DNA of 64,000 bases, taken from NCBI GenBank assembly GCA_007126575.1, contig SLBA01000042.1, forward strand, positions 1 to 64,000. The letters are read 5' to 3'. Origin of the DNA: Gemmatimonadota bacterium. Its GTDB lineage: Bacteria; Gemmatimonadota; Gemmatimonadetes; Longimicrobiales; Gaopeijiaceae. Each line of letters starts with the position of its first letter. The stretch's first letter is position 1. Below are positions 7,712 through 17,440 of this stretch, piece after piece. Position numbers and translations under genes: made by a program. The notes under the pieces are model-generated. The model was not told where the DNA came from. It ran no database searches and saw only the letters and a list, made by a program, of their open reading frames with translations.

Positions 7712-10700
7712 TCAGAAGCGCCATTCCCGGAAGATCAGGGAGCCGAAGACGCTCGCCCGGTCCGGCTCCTCGGGAAGAAGGGTCGGCACCGCCGGAAGGA
7801 ACCGGGGTCGCCAGGTCACCCGCCACACCCAGCCGTGTTCGGTCTCGTAGTCCATGCGGGCGCCCGGGTGCACGAAGGTGGGGCGGGCCTGTCCCGAAAT
7901 GAAGAGGCGCGAGGTCACGTAGCGCCCGGCCTCGAACTCGGTGCCCCGGAGGAGGTCGGCGAACTCCCCGGTCGAGATCTCGGCCGGTATCTCGGCGGGG
8001 CGGATGTTCAGGACATCAAGCCCGAGGGTCCGGGCCGTCTCGGCTTCGACCTGCCCGAGAACCGCGTCGAATCCCACCGTGGCGAACTGCTGGGCGGCCC
8101 GGCTCGCGACCTGCCCCACCAGGGGTCCGCCGGACGACCCCTGTCCCGAGAGGGCCGAGCCGGGCTGGGCCAGCAGGGAGCCGGCGTCCCGGCCGAAGAC
8201 CACGAAGCTGAGCAGGTCCGTCTGGGAGAGGGGTGGCTCGGCGGTACTCTCGAGTTCGGTCTCCAGATCCGTCGGCGTCCCGTCAAGCACGATCCGGACG
8301 TCGAAGGGCTCCCGACCCGGGAGCTGCACCTCGTGCTCGGCGGTGAGCCGGATCAGGGGCTCGAGCGGTGCTCCCTCGACGAAGGTGACGGTCCCACGGC
8401 TCAGGCTGAAGCGCCGACTCATGAACTCGTACTCCCCCCGGTCGCTCTGCACGGTCCCCTCGAGGCCGATGTCCTCGGGGCGAACCCCGTTCATCCGCAC
8501 GCGGAGCGGCCCGATGGCCGGCGGGGTCGAGAACTCCACATTCGCGTCGGGAGAGCGGACCCACATCCCGCGGGCGATATGCAGATCCAGCTCCACCTGC
8601 AGGTTCTGCAGGACGGGCGGGGTATCGACCAGGCGGTCGATCTCCTGGACCAGCCGGGGGTCGAGCCGGGCTCGGAGCGCCGGGTCCTCCAGGTCCAGGG
8701 GAACGGGCTCGGCCAGTTCCTCGGTGCTGGGAATGCGGACCACCCCCTCCCGGGTCCGTACCTCGCCGGTGACCACGACCTCGTCGAGAGTGCCGGCCAC
8801 CTCGATCTGCGCGTCGGCTCGGGCCCTCACGTCCGCGGTGCGGATCGCCTGGGCATCAGTGGCCTCGATCGCGAGCTCGAAGGTGGGTTCGGCCAGCTCG
8901 GCCAGGTCCACTTCGCCCGACATCCGGATCGGCCCCCTGCTGTAGGCCACGATCGAGTCCACCCGAAGGAGCCGGTCGTCGAACGAGACCCTGCCGGCCA
9001 GGTCGTCGACCCGGATCCCGAGGGGCTCCACGAAGACGGTGGGGACGATCACGTCCATGCCTCCGGCCACACGGGCGTCTTCGTAGCTCCCCGACAGCCT
9101 GAGCTCTCCGTCGACCCTCCCGGCGATCCCCGCGATCTCTTCGACGAGGGCATCGAACCCCTCGAGTCGGAGCTCCTCGAGACGGGCCTCGGCGGCGATC
9201 GGCCCCTCCAGAAGGCGCTCCTCGGGGGCCTCGATGAGCCCCAGGTCCAGGGGGAGGCGGGCTTCGGCCACCAGGATCCGGCGCTCCTCCTGAAGGGCCC
9301 GGGCGTCCAGAGTCAGCCGCTCCTCGGCGTAGTCCACCTCCGCCTGGAGTTCCGGAAGGGGATGGTCGGCCAGGGTGACCCCGGTCAGGCCCGTGGTCCC
9401 GTGGATCACCGGTCGCTCGAGCGATCCCCTCCACTCCACCTCCAGATCGAGGTGTCCGGCCAGGTCGGGTTCCATTTGCGCCAGGTGGGCCAGGTGGCCG
9501 AGCTCGAAGGCGTTCAGCGAGAGCGCGAGCGACTCGTCGTCGGGCGCCGTGTCCTGGGCGTCGACCTCGCGCAGGGGGAGGACTCCGGTGGCGGTGAACC
9601 CGGCCTCGATGTCGCTTTCGAGGATGACGTCGGCCAGCTCGACCCTCCGGTCGTCCCATCGCACCACACCGGGACGGGGGAGTCGGTACAGGGCGTCTTC
9701 GAACTCGAGGGTCAGGTCGTCGAGTCGGGCCTCGCCGGACTCCCCGGCGAGCTCGAAGGCGCCCGCGACACGGACCCCGGTCTCGGGGTCCTGACGGACC
9801 GAAAGCGCCAGGTCACCCGACTGGACCTCTCCGGTCTGGATGGCCACCTCGGTCTCGACCCGGTCGTACTCGAACCCGGCCAGGAAGAGCCCCTCGGCCT
9901 CGAGCTCTGCGGTGGCCTCGAGCACGAGATCGGGCCCCTGGTCCTCATCGGCCTCCGGGGCGGGCTGGTCACCCACCGAAGGGGTCCGCGCCACACCCGC
10001 CAGGGCGTAGCTCCCCCGAGCGTGCTCGACGCGATTGCCGAGCACGATGAGACCCTCTGCGTTCATCCCTCCCTGCGCGTCGAAGTGGCCCGTGTGCCCC
10101 TCCAGCACTCCGAAGATCTCGAGGCTCCCGTCCATCCGGTCCCGGGGGATGCCCTCGAGCCCGGGAAGCTCCTCGAGCTCGGGAAGGCCCGGCCGGTCCC
10201 CCGTGGCCAGGTGCTCCACCTGGGCGTCGCGTACGATCCGGGCCAGATCCTCCTCTCGGACCTCCACCGCGGCCTCGCGAACCGAGGGTCGGGGCTCGAC
10301 GAGCTCCGGATCGGCCGGGACCAGGGGCTCCAGAAGGTGGAGCGAGTCCACCGAGACCCGGTACTCCAGCGCTCCACTCCGTTCGTCGGTGAGTCCGAAG
10401 GATCCCCGGGCGTCGAGGTAGGCCGACGCCATCTCGAAGGTGAGGGTGTCGACCCGGACGAGGCCCCGGTCCATGGCCAGCCGGGCGGTCAGGTGGCGGG
10501 AGGGCAGCTCCGCCCCCACCTCGGGCTCCCCCTCGTCGATCGATCGCCAGGGGCCGTCGTCCAGCAGCTCGGCGGAAAGCTCGGCGGCGAGTTCGGCGGG
10601 GTCCGTGCCCTCGCCGCGGGCCTGCACACTCCCTGCGAGCGAGGTCTCGTCTCGGACCCGGCCCGAGAGCGCCGAAAGGTCCAGGTCGCCGAGCGTCAGC

Positions 10701-12703
10701 CCCAGGCGGTACAGGGGGCTGTCACCCGTCAGATCGAGGGCCCCCTCGGACTCCAGCAGCCCACCACCCGGAAGCTCGAGCCGGAGCGATCCGTCGAGCT
10801 CCCGGAAGCTCCCCTGGAAGCGGCCCTCGCCGTTCAGGTCTCCTCGCAGCCCGGCGTCCGGAGCGAAGCGTCCGGCGGTGACGAGCGAGACATCGTCCAG
10901 CGCCACGTCGGCCGCGAACCGCCCGTCTCCGTCGGTGGCCACCTCGCCGCTGGCCAGGAGCCGGGAGCTCTCGTCCTCGGCCTGCCGGTGAAGGAACTCG
11001 GTCTCGAAGCGCAGCTCCTCGTCGAGCGTGCCATCGAGACGGGCGATCCCGTCGATGGTGCCCCCCAGGGGAAGCTCCGGATCCACCTCGCGGAGGAGCC
11101 CGACCTGCACGCCCTCGAGGTGGACGACCCCGTCCGACACCCGCAGCTCGTCCACGAAGGCGACCCGTGCGGTCGCGCTTACCCGGCTGGTGCCGACCGC
11201 CGGATCCATGTGGGCCAACGCTCCGTCGATGGCAAGGGGACCGGTGAGGGGACCGTCGAGGGTGGCCTGCCCCCGGATCTCGCCCCGCAGCGGGGTCTGG
11301 GGTGCCACCGCGCGAACGAGCTCGGTGCGCAGGGGATCGAGACGCACCGTCAGCCCGGCAAGGCGGATCTCTTCTCCAGGGATGACGCCCCCCTCGATCC
11401 CGATCGAACTGGTGTGCCCCGCCTCGCTCCGGAACCCGATGCGGGCGTCCACCCGGGCGGGGGGCCGGGACCCCTCCTCGTCCAGCGAGGTGACCGCCAC
11501 CCGACCACTCAGCTCGCCGTGCTCCGGGATCGTCAGCTCCGGGAGGACGTCGTCGCCGAGGAGCTCCTCGACGAATCGGGTCCGGATCCCTTCGAGCCGG
11601 AGCTCGGTGTCGTCCAGGACGAGCCGGTCGCCGAACTCGATGCCCCCCCCACCCTCGAGGCGACCCTCGCCGACGCGGATCTCGAGCTCCCCAAGCGTGG
11701 CCCGGGTCGTATGCTCGTCGAGCTGGACCGCCAGGGCGGCCTGCCCCTCGATCTCGCGGGGGAGGGGCGGATAGAGGAAACGCAGGTCGTCGAGGGTGAC
11801 CAGGGGGGCGTCCACTGCGGCCTGGAGCGCCGAGCTCTCGGGCACGAAGACGACATGGCCCGACAGCTCCGACGCGGGAAGAGCGAGGGTGAACTCCTCG
11901 ACCTCGAGGAGCTCCGGTCCGACCCGAAGGCGGGCCGACAGATGCTCGACCACCCCGGGCTCGGGCGATCGGAAGGGTTCGGCCCCTCCGCTGAGGTGGG
12001 CGAGATCGACACGGATCTCGTCGCTCTCCGGCTCGGCGAGGACGACGCGCGGAAGGTGGGCTTCGCTCACCCGGAACGCCATGACGCTCTGCAGGCCCTC
12101 GGGGACCTCCTCGACCCTCTCGAGCCCCTCGCCCGCCCGCGCCCGACGCTCCTGCTCCTCGCGCTCCCCGACGGTCAGCTCCGGGTTCGGCTCCCATGGC
12201 ATGCGAACGGCGACGTGGAACTCCTCTCCCCGGATCTCTCGCAGTTCGATCCAGTCGCCGAGCCCGGGGGCGGCGGCGGGGTCAGGGTCGGGCGCCTCCT
12301 CCGGCTCGAAGATGCGGGCGAAATTCCAGTCCTCGTCGGGGCGCTGGTCGAGGACGAGGTCGAGGCCGCTGAACTCCAGGCGGGTCAGGACGATGCGGCG
12401 CCCTACGAGCTCCGACAGGGAGTGGCGCCACCCGATCTCGCTGGCGGTCACGAAGGGCCGGCCCTCGGGATCGACGATGCTCATGTCCCGCAGGGTGCCC
12501 CCCACGATTAGGTTGCCGTCGAGCCGTCCAATCTCGACCTGCCCCTCGACGACCTCGTTCAGCTGGGCCTCGGCGAAGCCCCGCACCTGGTCGCGCCCCC
12601 ATGGGGTGTTGGTGATGATCAGGACGAATAGTACGGCCAGCAGGACCACCGATCCGAGACCGATGAGAAGGCCCCTGCCCACTCCCCTGACGGTGCCCGG
12701 CAT
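7712..12703 (-). CDS. tamB: TamB/YtfN-type translocation and assembly module protein
   Basis: At 1663 residues the protein has the TamB layout: an N-terminal membrane anchor (about 11-31), a very long run of beta-rich, Asp/Glu-rich repeats forming the lipid-conducting groove, and a C-terminal DUF490 domain (roughly the last 350 residues). Typical DUF490 phrases can be read there, such as GTVTFVEGAPLEPLIRLTAE, LSQTDLLSFVVFGRD and VTSRLFISGQ. TamB-like proteins bridge inner and outer membranes and are thought to carry phospholipids or help outer-membrane protein assembly with a BamA-family partner. That partner, tamA, lies immediately upstream; its stop TGA shares one base with this ATG (TGATG). 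The charge composition is strongly acidic, which is common in this genome. Confidence 0.93.
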   Translation of the reverse strand: MPGTVRGVGRGLLIGLGSVVLLAVLFVLIITNTPWGRDQVRGFAEAQLNEVVEGQVEIGRLDGNLIVGGTLRDMSIVDPEGRPFVTASEIGWRHSLSELVGRRIVLTRLEFSGLDLVLDQRPDEDWNFARIFEPEEAPDPDPAAAPGLGDWIELREIRGEEFHVAVRMPWEPNPELTVGEREEQERRARAGEGLERVEEVPEGLQSVMAFRVSEAHLPRVVLAEPESDEIRVDLAHLSGGAEPFRSPEPGVVEHLSARLRVGPELLEVEEFTLALPASELSGHVVFVPESSALQAAVDAPLVTLDDLRFLYPPLPREIEGQAALAVQLDEHTTRATLGELEIRVGEGRLEGGGGIEFGDRLVLDDTELRLEGIRTRFVEELLGDDVLPELTIPEHGELSGRVAVTSLDEEGSRPPARVDARIGFRSEAGHTSSIGIEGGVIPGEEIRLAGLTVRLDPLRTELVRAVAPQTPLRGEIRGQATLDGPLTGPLAIDGALAHMDPAVGTSRVSATARVAFVDELRVSDGVVHLEGVQVGLLREVDPELPLGGTIDGIARLDGTLDEELRFETEFLHRQAEDESSRLLASGEVATDGDGRFAADVALDDVSLVTAGRFAPDAGLRGDLNGEGRFQGSFRELDGSLRLELPGGGLLESEGALDLTGDSPLYRLGLTLGDLDLSALSGRVRDETSLAGSVQARGEGTDPAELAAELSAELLDDGPWRSIDEGEPEVGAELPSRHLTARLAMDRGLVRVDTLTFEMASAYLDARGSFGLTDERSGALEYRVSVDSLHLLEPLVPADPELVEPRPSVREAAVEVREEDLARIVRDAQVEHLATGDRPGLPELEELPGLEGIPRDRMDGSLEIFGVLEGHTGHFDAQGGMNAEGLIVLGNRVEHARGSYALAGVARTPSVGDQPAPEADEDQGPDLVLEATAELEAEGLFLAGFEYDRVETEVAIQTGEVQSGDLALSVRQDPETGVRVAGAFELAGESGEARLDDLTLEFEDALYRLPRPGVVRWDDRRVELADVILESDIEAGFTATGVLPLREVDAQDTAPDDESLALSLNAFELGHLAHLAQMEPDLAGHLDLEVEWRGSLERPVIHGTTGLTGVTLADHPLPELQAEVDYAEERLTLDARALQEERRILVAEARLPLDLGLIEAPEERLLEGPIAAEARLEELRLEGFDALVEEIAGIAGRVDGELRLSGSYEDARVAGGMDVIVPTVFVEPLGIRVDDLAGRVSFDDRLLRVDSIVAYSRGPIRMSGEVDLAELAEPTFELAIEATDAQAIRTADVRARADAQIEVAGTLDEVVVTGEVRTREGVVRIPSTEELAEPVPLDLEDPALRARLDPRLVQEIDRLVDTPPVLQNLQVELDLHIARGMWVRSPDANVEFSTPPAIGPLRVRMNGVRPEDIGLEGTVQSDRGEYEFMSRRFSLSRGTVTFVEGAPLEPLIRLTAEHEVQLPGREPFDVRIVLDGTPTDLETELESTAEPPLSQTDLLSFVVFGRDAGSLLAQPGSALSGQGSSGGPLVGQVASRAAQQFATVGFDAVLGQVEAETARTLGLDVLNIRPAEIPAEISTGEFADLLRGTEFEAGRYVTSRLFISGQARPTFVHPGARMDYETEHGWVWRVTWRPRFLPAVPTLLPEEPDRASVFGSLIFREWRF

Positions 12704-15039
12704 CAGAAGGCCTCCCCGATCGAGAAGTGGAGGGTGAGACGCCCCAGGATGCGGCCCAGGGTGCCCTGATCCTCGAGCGGATCGAAGAGCCGTCTCTGGT
12801 CGAGCTGGATGAGCTCTCGCTCGGTGACGCCCCCGCCGACGTCGATCTCGCTCTCGGTAATGACCGGCAGAAGCCGGGCCTCGCGCGGCCGGACGCCCAG
12901 GTCGATGCGGATGGGACCGGCCGGAGAGGGGACCCTCACCCCGAAGCCCGGAGTGATGGAGCCCGCGGCGTCCTGGAGGAAGCCCTCGACCCGCCCTCCC
13001 ACCAGCGCCCCGTCCACGAAGACGGCCGCGTAGATCCCGGCGACCGGGAATCGGTACTCGACACTCCCTTCGAGGACGCTCGTGCCCCCCAGCGGTCGGG
13101 AGGCGAACGCACTCACCGGGGCTCCGTGCGGATCACAGCTCCGGTCCCGGATCTCCTCTTCGGTGCAGATGTCGTCCTCGAGGAGGAGCACCCTTGGAAT
13201 GGCGAGGACCCTCGGGCCGAGCTGGTTTTCGGCGTAGCCCCGGACAGAGCGGGCCCCACCCGAGAAGAAGCGCTTGCGCGGGTGGAGGAGGGCCTGGCCC
13301 TTCCCGCCGTTCCCGTCGGTGCCGAGTGCCTCGCCGGTGCTCTCGAGCGACCGGACCCAGCCCGCCCGCACGTGGGCGGCCAGCACGTGGCGGATGGGCC
13401 CACCGAAGGGCTGGTAGTAGCTCGCATTGGCCGAGGCCCGGTTGTAGCGGAAGTCCGAGAGGGTCCAGCTCGAGGCGTGCTCCAGCGCCACCCGTGCCCG
13501 GTACCCGGTGGTCGGCGCCAGGGCGGCATCGCTGCGGTCCACGTAATAGCTGAGCGTCAGGGGCGCCAGGGAGTTCTGCTTGCGGAGCGAGGCGATGGCA
13601 GTGGGCTCGCAGATCCCGAAGGTGACGCAGAAGTAGACGTCTCCGGCTCGGACCGAGATCATCTCGGGTCGGTAGCTGAGGCTCAACGGCATCTGGAACC
13701 CCAGCGCCCGTGTGAGCGAGACCTCGGCCCCGTACCCCTGGTCCACCGAGACGGCCGGCACCACCCGCCGGTGGCCGAAGAGACTCAGGCTCAGGGTGTT
13801 CTCGGCGGCCCGGAACGCCGGCTGGGTCAGCTCGACGCTGGCCTGCCAGGTGGGACGCTTGAAGGGCCCCTCGTCGACGCCCGAGAGCTCGCCCGGAAGG
13901 ATGTCGCGGAAGAAGAGGCGATCGGTGAGCTGGGCGGCCAGCAGGTTGCCGACGGTGCTCCGCAGATCCACCCGCCGGCCTCCGCCTCGCCAGTTGTAGT
14001 GGGTGTAGCGCCCCTCGACCTGCACGAACTCCAGCGTGTTGAATCCCCCCCCGACCCGGGCGAGGCGCGGGGGCGCCTCGCGGACGCGCACCTCGACCAC
14101 CTTGCCACTATCGGCCGGCTCCGTGCCGTTGGGCGCCGCCTCTCCCACCGACACGTCCGCCTCGTGGAAGAGGTTGGACCGGTGGAGCGCCCTTCGACTC
14201 CGGTTCAGGAGCGGGGTCGTAAGGAGGTCTCCCTCGCTGAAGAAGAGGGCCCGGATGATGGTGGAGTCCGCGATCTGCTCGTTGCCCCGGATATCGAAGT
14301 CCGCGACGGTGGCCCGAGCTCCGGGGTCCACCAGGACTTCGACCCGGGCGGACCCGTCGGAGACCACGATGGAGTCCCGGATGTCATGGTCCAGGAATCC
14401 ACGCTCCTCGAGGAGGACGGCCATGCGCTCGAGGGCCACCTCGATCTGCCGGTGGCTCAGGGGGGCTCCCTCGTCCGGAAGGTTCGCCCCGGCGATGTCG
14501 CGCCTCGACAGCACCTGCCGGGTCTGGCGGAGCTCCAGCGACTCGATCCGGGTCGGCGGGCCCTCGACGACCTGGAACTGCACATGGAGGTCGCCCCCGT
14601 TCTCGTGGATCTCGGCCACGGCTGCGGCGTCCCGATAGCCCTCCCTGAAGTACCGGACCAGAATTCGGAGCTCGTCGCGGGCCAGCTCGTCGGGGTCGAG
14701 CCGATGGCGCTCGATCAGGAAATCGGAGTCGATGAACCAGCAGAAGGGCGTGAGGAGCAGGCCACGGCACCGGGTGGGGGTGGTGTAGATGCTGGCCTCG
14801 AGACTGCTTTCGGAAAGGGCGTCGACCCCCGAGAAGCTCACCTCGCCGATGATCCGGTGGGCGGCGTCCCCGGCGGTGAGCTGGGCCTCGAGCTTGGGCG
14901 GGGTGCCGAGGGCGAAAGCCACCACGGCCGCGGTGAACAGGGCCGTGCCGTGCGGAAACCACCGACGCGAAGCCGATATCCACCCGGGTGAAGACGTGCA
15001 GAGTCCTTGTCGGCTGAACGAAGGCAGACGTACGGTCAT
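12703..15039 (-). CDS. tamA: TamA/BamA-family (Omp85) outer-membrane protein
   Basis: A 778-residue Omp85 protein. After a longish N-region (positively charged to about residue 27) comes a hydrophobic core ending near KLEAQ, giving a signal peptide of about 53 residues. About three POTRA domains fill residues 55-340 (IIGEVSFSGVDALSE, RIESLELRQTRQVLSRRDI, VADFDIRGNEQIADSTIIRALFF). A 16-strand-type barrel follows to the C-terminus, which ends in the aromatic LHFSIGEAF. The barrel contains the conserved GGARSVRGY motif of lid loop 6. Several cysteine pairs in predicted loops (for example CVTFGIC and DDICTEE...RSC) are unusual for an Omp85 barrel and may form surface disulfides. It is translationally coupled to tamB. 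Confidence 0.92.
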   Translation of the reverse strand: MTVRLPSFSRQGLCTSSPGWISASRRWFPHGTALFTAAVVAFALGTPPKLEAQLTAGDAAHRIIGEVSFSGVDALSESSLEASIYTTPTRCRGLLLTPFCWFIDSDFLIERHRLDPDELARDELRILVRYFREGYRDAAAVAEIHENGGDLHVQFQVVEGPPTRIESLELRQTRQVLSRRDIAGANLPDEGAPLSHRQIEVALERMAVLLEERGFLDHDIRDSIVVSDGSARVEVLVDPGARATVADFDIRGNEQIADSTIIRALFFSEGDLLTTPLLNRSRRALHRSNLFHEADVSVGEAAPNGTEPADSGKVVEVRVREAPPRLARVGGGFNTLEFVQVEGRYTHYNWRGGGRRVDLRSTVGNLLAAQLTDRLFFRDILPGELSGVDEGPFKRPTWQASVELTQPAFRAAENTLSLSLFGHRRVVPAVSVDQGYGAEVSLTRALGFQMPLSLSYRPEMISVRAGDVYFCVTFGICEPTAIASLRKQNSLAPLTLSYYVDRSDAALAPTTGYRARVALEHASSWTLSDFRYNRASANASYYQPFGGPIRHVLAAHVRAGWVRSLESTGEALGTDGNGGKGQALLHPRKRFFSGGARSVRGYAENQLGPRVLAIPRVLLLEDDICTEEEIRDRSCDPHGAPVSAFASRPLGGTSVLEGSVEYRFPVAGIYAAVFVDGALVGGRVEGFLQDAAGSITPGFGVRVPSPAGPIRIDLGVRPREARLLPVITESEIDVGGGVTERELIQLDQRRLFDPLEDQGTLGRILGRLTLHFSIGEAF

Positions 15040-15211
15040 GCGCAGATCGGGGAGCTGAATCGAAAAATGCGGGAGCGGATCGGGGGTCCTGGAAAGAAGC
15101 TACCCACGACTTGCCAATAAGATTTCCAGCGCACCCCAGCCCGGCCCTCTCCAGCGCGTTCGCCCGGGACGGGGAGCCGGCGCTCCCCGAGGCAACCTAC
15201 GAAGAAAGGGG

Positions 15212-15240
15212 TAGACAAATCCGCCGGGGCCCCGTACATT
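15212..15240 (+). promoter_or_regulatory. Promoter for blaI
   Basis: TAGACA (15212-15217), a 17-bp spacer and TACATT (15235-15240) form a good sigma-70-type promoter about 70 bp before the blaI-like ATG. An inverted repeat ACGAA-N4-TTCGT lies about 10-25 bp downstream in the untranslated leader and could be an operator, though it is not the TACA/TGTA dyad known for BlaI. Confidence 0.55.
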
Positions 15241-15309
15241 GCAACTTGACGCCACGAACACGTTCGTACCGCAGGGTCGGCCACCACCGGCCCCACACCG
15301 GGAGATCGA

Positions 15310-15696
15310 ATGAGCGATGTGAGTTTTTCCGAGCGTGAGCTCGACATCATGAGCATTCTCTGGCGCGAGGGCTCGGGTACGGTCAGTGAGGTCCGCGAGG
15401 CGCTCGAGGATTCGCTCGGCTACACCTCGGTGCTGAAGATCCTGCAGATCCTGGAAGAGAAGGGTCACATCCGGCACGAGAAGGAGGGGCGTGCCTATCG
15501 CTACATCCCCCTGGTCCAGGCCGAAGAGGCCGGACAGACCGCACTGGGGCGCGTCGTCGACAAGATCTTTCACGGCTCGGCGGAGCTGACGCTGGCCCGC
15601 CTCGTCTCGCAGCGCTCGATCTCGGCCGAGGAACTGGACCGGATGCGCCGGCTCCTCGACGAGCTCGACGCCGACGAAACGGGGAGCGAACGATGA
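15310..15696 (+). CDS. BlaI/MecI/CopY-family transcriptional repressor
   Basis: A 128-residue winged-helix repressor that begins SDVSFSERELDIMSILW and carries the recognition-helix region GYTSVLKILQILEEKGHI, followed by YRYIPLV. This is the BlaI pattern from end to end, with a helical dimerisation C-terminus. Proteins of this family dimerise on a dyad and are inactivated by cleavage or derepression through a partner M56 membrane peptidase. Such a partner starts 10 bp downstream, so the pair forms an operon and very likely a signalling module. No beta-lactamase or other obvious target lies nearby. Alternative readings such as CopY-type copper sensing cannot be excluded; no cysteine motif is present. 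Confidence 0.92.
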   Translation: MSDVSFSERELDIMSILWREGSGTVSEVREALEDSLGYTSVLKILQILEEKGHIRHEKEGRAYRYIPLVQAEEAGQTALGRVVDKIFHGSAELTLARLVSQRSISAEELDRMRRLLDELDADETGSER

Positions 15697-15706
15697 GGCA
15701 CGAACG

Positions 15707-17440
15707 ATGAGCTGGGTCCTCTACGTCCTGGCGCTCACCGGACTGCTCACCGCGGCGGCCTGGGGGGCCGAGCGGCTCTGCGCCGCGCTCCGGCTGCCCA
15801 CTCGCTGGCCCTGGCTTCTGGCCATGGGTGCGAGCTGCCTGCTCGTCCCACTGGCGTGGTCCGGCGTCCTGACTGCTCCCGACGAGCCTGCGGTGCCGGT
15901 CACCACGACGATGCCGGCGGCCACCCCCTCGGTCGCCTCTGACCCGGGGCCCGAGCGGGGTCTGCTCGCGGGGGTCCTGGGCGCCCTGAACCCGGCCGGC
16001 ACCCCGGCAGTGTTTGTGAACCGCGCGCTCCGGAGTACCGAGGAGGCCCTTGCCGGGGCCGCGTCCCGCATGGGCATGGACCGATCCGGCGCCGGGTCGA
16101 TGGTCGCCTCCCTCTCGATCTTGCTCTGGGGGGCCGCCTCGCTGGCGCTCCTCCTGACCTTGGCGACGACCTGGCAGCGCCTGGCCCACTCCCGCCGGCG
16201 GTGGCCCCGGGCGCGCCTGCTGGGTCACGAGGTCCGGATGTCGACCGAGCTGGGTCCGGCGGTGGTGGGGATCCGACGTCCCGAGATCGTGATGCCCACC
16301 CGGAGCCTGAGCCTCGAGGCACCGCAGCTCGGCCTGGTGCTGCTACATGAGCGCGAGCACCTGACCTCCGGAGACACCCGGGTACTCGCCGCGGGATTGC
16401 TCCCGCTGCTGCTCTTTCCCTGGAATCCCTTTCTCTGGATCCAGAACGCGCGTCTCCGGGAGGCGATCGAAGTCGATTGCGATGCCCGGGTCCTGCGCTC
16501 CGGCATTCCCGCCCGGCAGTACGCCGGCACCCTGCTCGACGTGGGAGGGGACCGCTTTCCCGGTCTCTCGCCCTCTCCGGCCCTCGGAGGGCCGACCCGA
16601 CTTCTCGAACGGAGGATCCGATCCATGAAGCCCCGCACCCGTACGCAACGCCTTCCCGCCGGACTCGCCGGTGCCGCCCTCGCGGTCATCTTCCTCGTCC
16701 TTGCCTGCGAGGTGGACACCCCGACCGTCGACGGCCACGATCCGGTCGAAGCCCAGGCTCTCCAGACGGCCGAAGAAGCCTCGCCGGACGAGGACGGCAC
16801 GATCACGGTTCGTGGCCGCCAGTCGATCTCGACGCACCCCTCGCCCCTGATCGTCATTGACGGCGTGATCCAGAGCTCCGGGCAGATCGGTGTGGCACCC
16901 GAGAACATCGTCTCGATCGAGGTCGTTAAGGGCTCCGACGCACGCGAGCAGTACGGCGAGCGCGCCAATGAGGGCGCGATTCTGGTCACGACCGTCGATG
17001 CCCCCGACGGGCCTCCCTCCCCCCCGACCCCGACGGAGCCCGGATCGAGCGACGATGCCGAGTCCGACGCGTCGATCGAGGCCATCGAACTCCCGCCCGA
17101 GGTCGATTCGCCGCCGCCCCCGGCCGATATCGAGGACCGGCGGGAGGTCCTTGAGGGGATGGTGTCCGGAGCCAGGGTGATGAGCCGCTCCGCTGACGAC
17201 CGGACGACCGTTCGACTGCGTGGCCGCACCAGCGGTACCTCCGGGGCGGCGCCCCTGATCGTGGTAGACGGGATCATCCAGGCGTCCGGAAGTGCCGACC
17301 ACCTGGACCCCGACGAGATCCTCGACATCGAGATCGTGAAGGGCTCGGCCGCCTCGGAGCGGTACGGATCGCGCGCCGCCGAGGGCGTGATCCTGATCAC
17401 CACCCGGGGGGCCGGCGACCCGCCGTCCTCCACACCCTGA
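15707..17440 (+). CDS. M56 (BlaR1-like) peptidase fused to two TonB-plug-like domains
   Basis: A 577-residue membrane protein. Residues 1-310 are the BlaR1/MecR1-type M56 region: hydrophobic segments near 1-60 and 130-150, then the cytoplasmic zinc site HEREH (214-218) with the following EAIEVDCDARVLR helix, and a last membrane segment near 315-335 that ends in LVLAC. Instead of a penicillin-binding sensor, the exported part carries two similar blocks. Block 1 (about 366-428) reads PLIVIDGVIQ...IEVVKGSDAREQYG...GAILVTT; block 2 (about 490-567) reads PLIVVDGIIQ...IEIVKGSAASERYG...GVILITT. This is the plug-domain signature of SusC/RagA-type TonB-dependent receptors. M56 proteins with one plug domain occur in Bacteroidota and relatives; tandem blocks suggest an internal duplication. 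Its presumed target is the BlaI-like repressor upstream. Confidence 0.85.
   Translation: MSWVLYVLALTGLLTAAAWGAERLCAALRLPTRWPWLLAMGASCLLVPLAWSGVLTAPDEPAVPVTTTMPAATPSVASDPGPERGLLAGVLGALNPAGTPAVFVNRALRSTEEALAGAASRMGMDRSGAGSMVASLSILLWGAASLALLLTLATTWQRLAHSRRRWPRARLLGHEVRMSTELGPAVVGIRRPEIVMPTRSLSLEAPQLGLVLLHEREHLTSGDTRVLAAGLLPLLLFPWNPFLWIQNARLREAIEVDCDARVLRSGIPARQYAGTLLDVGGDRFPGLSPSPALGGPTRLLERRIRSMKPRTRTQRLPAGLAGAALAVIFLVLACEVDTPTVDGHDPVEAQALQTAEEASPDEDGTITVRGRQSISTHPSPLIVIDGVIQSSGQIGVAPENIVSIEVVKGSDAREQYGERANEGAILVTTVDAPDGPPSPPTPTEPGSSDDAESDASIEAIELPPEVDSPPPPADIEDRREVLEGMVSGARVMSRSADDRTTVRLRGRTSGTSGAAPLIVVDGIIQASGSADHLDPDEILDIEIVKGSAASERYGSRAAEGVILITTRGAGDPPSSTP

Follow-up and report, generated by a model that had tools for sequence, protein, structure and literature searches.

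The closest described systems are the BlaI-BlaR1 and MecI-MecR1 pairs. In these pairs, a repressor gene adjoins the gene of an M56 membrane protease whose exported C-terminal part is the sensor, and the BlaR1 protease acts on BlaI (PMC7593790). The locus described here shares with these pairs the repressor gene and an M56 protease with an exported C-terminal part and a protease motif between the third and fourth hydrophobic segments. It differs in having plug domains instead of a penicillin-binding sensor, and in a candidate internal start and lipobox that precede the sensor.

SusC/RagA receptors are a second point of comparison, and the locus shares with them the Plug family, its motifs, and the TIGR04057 signature. 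The plugs of the locus differ in that no barrel domain was matched alongside them, they occur in two copies, and they are joined to a protease; in relatives, they are also found in lipoproteins.

M56 proteins with TonB C-terminal domains are known from surveys of Bacteroidota. These have the same protease with a part of the TonB system in the place of the sensor, and relatives of the present locus include such proteins, e.g., L041, where Pfam confirms the TonB_C domain (66.7 bits). The present locus has plugs instead of TonB_C, plus a predicted nested lipoprotein start.

The clpB gene has two in-frame starts that give a long and a short product. The same arrangement is proposed here, except that the short form would be exported as a lipoprotein, with a transmembrane helix of the long form serving as its signal peptide. 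Searches of an open-access library gave no published account of the present arrangement.

The locus lies within a stretch of 64,000 nucleotides from a Gemmatimonadota bacterium, referred to as the window. From its sequence and that of its relatives, it is interpreted, with a probability of roughly three in four, as a self-repressed BlaI/M56 operon in which the protease gene holds a second in-frame gene, yielding a tethered plug sensor and a free plug lipoprotein. The features are listed in Table 1.

Table 1. Features of the BlaI/M56 locus, with positions in the window.
Feature	Position	Strand	Basis
Putative BlaI operator 1, CTACGAAGAAAGGGGTAG, imperfect dyad overlapping the -35 box	15197..15214	+	Recurrent dyads upstream of BlaI
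Promoter: -35 TAGACA (15212-15217), 17-base spacer, -10 TACATT (15235-15240)	15212..15240	+	Read from sequence
Putative BlaI operator 2, ACGAACACGTTCGT, perfect dyad downstream of -10	15254..15267	+	Recurrent dyads
BlaI/MecI-family repressor P0002, 128 aa	15310..15696	+	Pfam Penicillinase_R, E 3.6e-29
M56 (BlaR1-type) membrane protease P0001, 577 aa, full-length product, two plug domains	15707..17440	+	
Internal Shine-Dalgarno site GGAGG, within the L-E-R-R codons	16611..16615	+	Synonymous constraint in relatives
Internal in-frame ATG (Met307), candidate start of nested product	16625..16627	+	Shine-Dalgarno association, little-folded mRNA
Nested product: predicted plug lipoprotein precursor, 271 aa, residues 307-577, both plugs	16625..17440	+	
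Predicted signal peptide doubling as last transmembrane helix; lipobox V-L-A-C, Cys334 at 16706-16708	16625..16708	+	
Plug repeat 1, about residues 380-431	16844..16999	+	Pfam Plug; home-made profile with close relatives among its seeds, E 9e-23
Plug repeat 2, fuller, SusC-like N-terminal LEGMVSGARV part, residues 471-569	17117..17413	+	Pfam, TIGR04057, phmmer, Foldseek

Gene sets

P0001 has matches in all 59 related genomes searched; part of these are receptor plugs, and many are M56 genes. Set 1 is made up of 63 M56 genes from the same order, i.e., 68 matches minus four without HExxH and a near-copy of the window (L036). Set 2 is made up of 73 M56 genes from further genomes of the phylum, i.e., 74 matches minus a duplicate (L184). 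The 60 stretches of set 2 were picked from the upper part of the matches listed, in genomes outside set 1, and several are close kin of set 1. The selection profile of set 2 spans the Met and lipobox columns discussed below, and the set 2 counts of these two features are thus biased upward; codon choice is unaffected. A broader draw was scored with Pfam, and 30 of its genes were read, one of which (L107) lacks the motif and was left out. A broad survey of organisms for related loci gave one locus only.

The BlaI repressor and the M56 protease

The initial annotation described a BlaI repressor coupled to an M56 peptidase, and the Pfam scores bear this out. P0002 (15310-15693) reaches 101.9 bits with Penicillinase_R (cut-off 22.6), and P0001 (15707-17437) reaches 63.4 bits with Peptidase_M56 (cut-off 31). 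The zinc-protease motif HExxH of P0001 is HEREH (residues 214-218) and lies between the third and fourth of the four hydrophobic segments found by a simple hydropathy scan. P0001 scores 27.6 bits with the blaR1 equivalog NF000326, far from its cut-off of 400, and Pfam lists no transpeptidase, beta-lactamase, or penicillin-binding domain for it at E up to 1.

BlaI is found upstream of 103 of 137 M56 genes. Among the 34 others, five are in stretches too short to tell, and 17 are in stretches with more than one M56 gene. The Rfam search of the window gave nothing above threshold except a tRNA at 2-74.

Tandem plug domains in the place of the sensor

Plug (PF07715) matches P0001 in two stretches with 62.3 bits (cut-off 23.9), and the motifs are at the places given by the initial annotation: PLIVIDG starts at residue 380 and PLIVVDG at 516, with IEVVKG at 404 and IEIVKG at 541. 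Its claim of tandem plug-like domains in the place of the sensor thus holds. The SusC/RagA signature TIGR04057 also exceeds its cut-off in two stretches (54.9 vs. 46.2). The full-length SusC/RagA family TIGR04056 stays below its own (115.6 bits vs. 368.25), and the Pfam and TIGR profile searches list no beta-barrel domain for P0001.

Among PDB sequences, phmmer matched RagA/SusC plugs to residues 471-567 with a best E of 4.1e-8. A single-sequence model of the whole exported part was useless (mean pLDDT 43.6), and the structure search was run with plug 2 only, for which the model has a moderate mean pLDDT of 58. The initial annotation had allowed for a fold other than a plug; the top Foldseek matches of the plug 2 model are SusC chains (8aa4_A, E 2.7e-4). 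The VIA-align Z of this model is middling (best 5.8) and is insufficient alone as proof of fold. Superantigen rows low in the structure-match lists were disregarded as apparent chance similarities of fold.

Tandem plugs are found by a home-made profile in 6 of 63 M56 proteins of set 1 and 16 of 73 of set 2. An assembly artefact, raised earlier as a possible source of the duplication, is ruled out because these 22 of 136 M56 relatives have tandem plugs as well. The nearest relative found, in the sister genome (REBS01000160.1, Gemmatimonadales isolate LCM1.Bin31), is 92% identical over residues 1-431 and is uninformative on the duplication because its contig ends within plug 1.

Any plug is found in 19 of 63 (set 1) and 51 of 73 (set 2) relatives, TonB_C in 27 of 63 and 9 of 73, and both together in 2 of 136, as counted with home-made profiles that were seeded with these same proteins. 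Since relatives have one or the other, the exported part is an exchangeable module of plugs or TonB C-terminal domains. A link of the sensor to the TonB/receptor system gains circumstantial support from the relatives in which TonB_C replaces the plugs or, in the two cases above, stands beside them.

A conserved internal ribosome-binding site and candidate start codon

Ahead of the last transmembrane helix, the M56 family has a conserved motif, L-E-R-R-[IL]-x-x-M. The codons of E-R-R are kept at the DNA level as GAACGGAGR or GAAAGGAGA, which is a Shine-Dalgarno site. AGG or AGA encodes the second Arg in 48 of 63 genes of set 1 and 66 of 73 genes of set 2, where the AGR background among Arg codons is 11% and 16%; the 11% value comes from 55 genes that were chosen by a Met-requiring pattern and used for codon background only. 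Where the first of the two positions is Arg, its codon is CGG or AGG in 42 of 47 genes of set 1.

Constraint was scored for codon-alignment columns with a common residue, as the departure from the genes' own codon use. In set 1 (63 genes), the consecutive E, R, and R are the top three of 125 scored columns, with G/n of 0.67, 1.26, and 2.33 and a column median of 0.139. When set 2 (73 genes) is realigned alone, the second Arg ranks first and the first Arg third of 155 scored columns; rank 2 is held by an unrelated Ser column. Chance and common ancestry are ruled out as sources of the GGAGR codons. The site and its control columns belong to the same genes, so common ancestry fails to explain the site, and every control column except the set 2 Ser column is far less constrained.

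An in-frame ATG follows at a narrow distance. Set 1 has 54 genes with the Met, and the ATG lies 9 bases past the second Arg codon in 43 of them, 6 bases past it in 10, and elsewhere in one. A strict Shine-Dalgarno sequence precedes 102 of 127 site Mets, compared with 70 of 1012 internal Mets elsewhere in these genes. Both the AGR codon and the downstream Met are present in 114 of 136 M56 genes across the two sets. In set 1, the Met is present in 48 of 48 AGR genes vs. 6 of 15 others (Fisher 2e-7, not tree-corrected). On the tree, this co-occurrence comes down to three or four supported independent contrasts, and the sign test is not significant. The AGR codon is absent from 13 of 127 Met-bearing genes, six among the 54 of set 1 and seven among the 73 of set 2. 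Family f4, which keeps the Met and lipobox without AGR, contributes five of the set 2 cases.

The broader draw comprises 29 M56 genes from the top of the Pfam-scored list, 25 of them with HELxH. Eleven have AGR, four of these with a nearby Met, and two further genes have the Met without AGR. Since some M56 genes have AGR without a nearby Met, the site can occur without a start.

These seven of 29 genes with AGR and no nearby Met would fit a different role for GGAGR, namely a programmed pause that slows ribosomes before the last helix for its correct insertion, with the full-length protease as the only product. Pausing at Shine-Dalgarno-like sites in membrane-protein genes was reportedly described by Fluman and co-workers in 2014, and the loss of significance on the tree points the same way. 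A pause needs no ATG, yet in set 1 all but one of the 54 genes with the Met have the ATG at a distance of 9 or 6 bases, and the Shine-Dalgarno association of the site Mets, the open mRNA around the ATG, which resembles that at presumed true starts, the lipoprotein-type signal peptide that the ATG opens, and the free-standing counterparts that exist as genes all speak against it. A pause alone is an unlikely account of the site.

Messenger RNA folding at the internal ATG

The 40-base fold energy at the internal ATG averages -4.9 kcal/mol, compared with -12 to -16 at 45-90 bases to either side. Presumed BlaI start codons are similar, with a mean of -6.5 kcal/mol (72 genes). In the 114 genes with AGR and Met, the mRNA from -20 to +20 is, on average, less folded than 92% of the windows within its own gene; for the 22 genes outside this group, the share is 50%. 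When the protein is held fixed and the codons are recoded synonymously, the 114 genes give a z of +1.10 (90% positive). The controls give -0.09 (the 22 other genes) and -0.10 (404 other internal Mets). The M56 gene of the window alone has a z of +1.65 in this comparison.

The predicted nested lipoprotein

The protein from the internal ATG reads MKPRTRTQRLPAGLAGAALAVIFLVLAC, i.e., a charged end, a hydrophobic stretch, and a lipobox. Lipoprotein features from Met307 (MKPRTRTQRLPAGLAGAALAVIFLVLA-C334) are recognized by pattern and by eye. The lipobox-like pattern is found in 46 of 63 relatives in set 1 and 72 of 73 in set 2; the pattern is permissive, and part of the set 1 matches sit inside the helix.

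This pattern, located where the last helix ends, would also suit a sole full-length translation product that lipoprotein signal peptidase cleaves at Cys334, in which case failed processing would be the signal. The Shine-Dalgarno site, the ATG, and the open mRNA are not accounted for by such processing, and 7 of 48 AGR genes in set 1 have no lipobox. As the whole explanation, it is the least probable of those weighed here, although processing at Cys334 could act jointly with the internal start.

An acidic residue follows the lipobox Cys in 92 of 116 M56 proteins vs. 18 of 40 entries of a rough lipoprotein set, a count that gives no localization because the lipoprotein background contains some M56-like entries. 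Plug lipoproteins also exist as separate genes. Of 12 short plug loci from relatives, seven (L127-L132 and L137) are, by eye, free-standing plug lipoprotein genes with no barrel, and L128 is the sole tandem case among them, with two plugs.

With the internal ribosome-binding site, the ATG, and the lipoprotein-type signal peptide all conserved, the plug part probably exists as a free lipoprotein as well. The M56 gene would then probably give a full-length sensor-protease and a free 271-residue plug lipoprotein. In the relatives with M56 and TonB_C, the same start would give a membrane- or lipid-anchored TonB-like protein.

The initial annotation, in which the candidate internal start, lipobox, and operators had gone unnoticed, proposed that the plugs are sensor modules, tethered to the protease and responsive to the TonB/receptor system or to some other ligand. 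Plugs do stand in the place of the sensor, and this part of the proposal stands; it is incomplete insofar as the plug part is probably also free. Taken alone, with no free form, a tethered sensor agrees with the domain assignments and with the alternation of plug and TonB_C in relatives. It offers no explanation for the synonymous constraint, which is the strongest in the gene, for the open mRNA, or for the lipobox, and it is improbable, more so than the pause.

Promoter and putative operators

The putative operators were read from dyads that recur upstream of BlaI. Across 99 BlaI upstream regions (window included), TACGA-6-TCGTA is found in 16 and ACGAA-4-TTCGT in 21; in five shuffles of these regions, any dyad is found at most three times. 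The sequence GTTGACA, on either strand, is present in 57 of the 99.

The initial annotation suggested mapping genes that share an operator with this operon. Operator 1 with its -35 box matches exactly at two places in its own assembly, and the pair of operators was found at one other place there (C195:6102-6174). Another three places have a single operator 1-like match that differs at one base. The second site precedes a lipoprotein-type gene, L237 (218-1489, G000:C195), and its operator 1 is conserved in the sister genome (L244). The L237 gene has a sub-threshold match to a 6-bladed-propeller family (DUF5128, 17.3 bits vs. cut-off 22.9), and its product is possibly a beta-propeller.

A Parabacteroides plasmid has an operon of BlaI, M56, and DUF4934 (L260), in which the DUF4934 gene also exceeds the DUF5128 cut-off. 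The likeness is a BlaI/M56 pair beside a gene of a 6-bladed-propeller family, which L237 matches only weakly. The differences are that Parabacteroides belongs to another phylum and that its plug-like M56 tail is seen by eye only, with no Pfam Plug match at 0.01.

Omp85/TamA-like and TamB genes (window 7712-15039) diverge from the BlaI operon and border the same intergenic region, in which the putative operators lie. This pair may or may not be co-regulated with the BlaI operon.

M56 genes beyond the phylum

Thirteen annotated plasmid M56 genes, to the exclusion of the unannotated Phocaeicola gene L265, were inspected for an internal Shine-Dalgarno sequence and ATG; all of these are single cases. 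Sphingomonas (L256) has GGGAGG-6-ATG at the same place. Pseudoalteromonas (L257) has AGAGG-6-ATG, followed by an apparent classical signal peptide. Legionella (L264) has AGGAGA-6-ATG, and its sensor is a transpeptidase by Pfam. The M56 genes of Spirosoma and Parabacteroides have the Met and no clear Shine-Dalgarno sequence. In Paraburkholderia and three Bacillota BlaR1 genes, the stretch before the sensor has no in-frame start with a Shine-Dalgarno sequence. The M56 proteins of Ruegeria, Maritalea, and Aliiroseovarius have short tails with no sensor and no site, and that of Pusillibacter has no internal site. A tblastn search of plasmids with an M56-TonB_C relative gave no match.

A wider generalization is tentative and falls somewhat short of even odds: in Gram-negative bacteria, BlaR1-like sensor-proteases would often be two nested genes, giving a sensor tethered to its protease and, from an internal start, a free exported sensor whose signal peptide is the last helix of the tethered form. 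In Gemmatimonadota, the free forms, plug lipoproteins or TonB-like proteins, would act as decoys or competitors in TonB-dependent transport, and the balance of tethered and free sensor would report transport activity to the cell.

Proposed mechanism

In the two-product reading, ribosomes would start at both sites, giving a plug sensor tethered through its fusion to the protease and a free plug lipoprotein, and the last helix of the long form would serve as the signal peptide of the short form. Once the signal reaches the periplasmic part, BlaI would be cut by the protease, by analogy with BlaR1. Cutting of BlaI would raise expression of the operon and of the second operator-bearing lipoprotein gene, L237. 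The free lipoprotein may share a ligand or partner with the tethered form and thereby set the gain or threshold of the response, or it may carry the signal itself. As the signal, the state of either TonB-dependent import or the outer membrane is the most likely candidate, because relatives have plugs or TonB C-terminal domains in this place.

If this reading is true, these genomes make two proteins from a gene annotated as encoding one, and the classic sensor architecture of drug resistance has relatives in which the sensor comes both tethered and free. It would also offer a direct test of switching in M56 proteases that have no beta-lactam sensor, and it would suggest a transcriptional read-out of TonB-dependent import.

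Variant M56 genes

Several M56 genes depart from the common arrangement. In another M56 subfamily (L100, L101, L102, L110, and L113), the second Arg codon is AGG, and no start codon lies nearby. In L091 (3969-4979, G051:C76), the start of BlaI is fused to the end of M56; the protease center is gone, and the internal start, signal peptide, and plug part are intact. A real deletion and an assembly fault are indistinguishable in this case. In L037 (8884-9916, G026, a one-contig genome), the front of the M56 gene is in a different frame, and the part encoding the internal-start lipoprotein is intact.

The M56 tail of L067 (1-1584, the same gene as L033) resembles, by eye, the front of a receptor, with an STN secretin-like part, a carboxypeptidase-like repeat, and the start of a plug. 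Arrays of at least three tandem M56 genes, mostly without a BlaI of their own, are found in L177, L178, L179, and L180, all from one genus of the same family.
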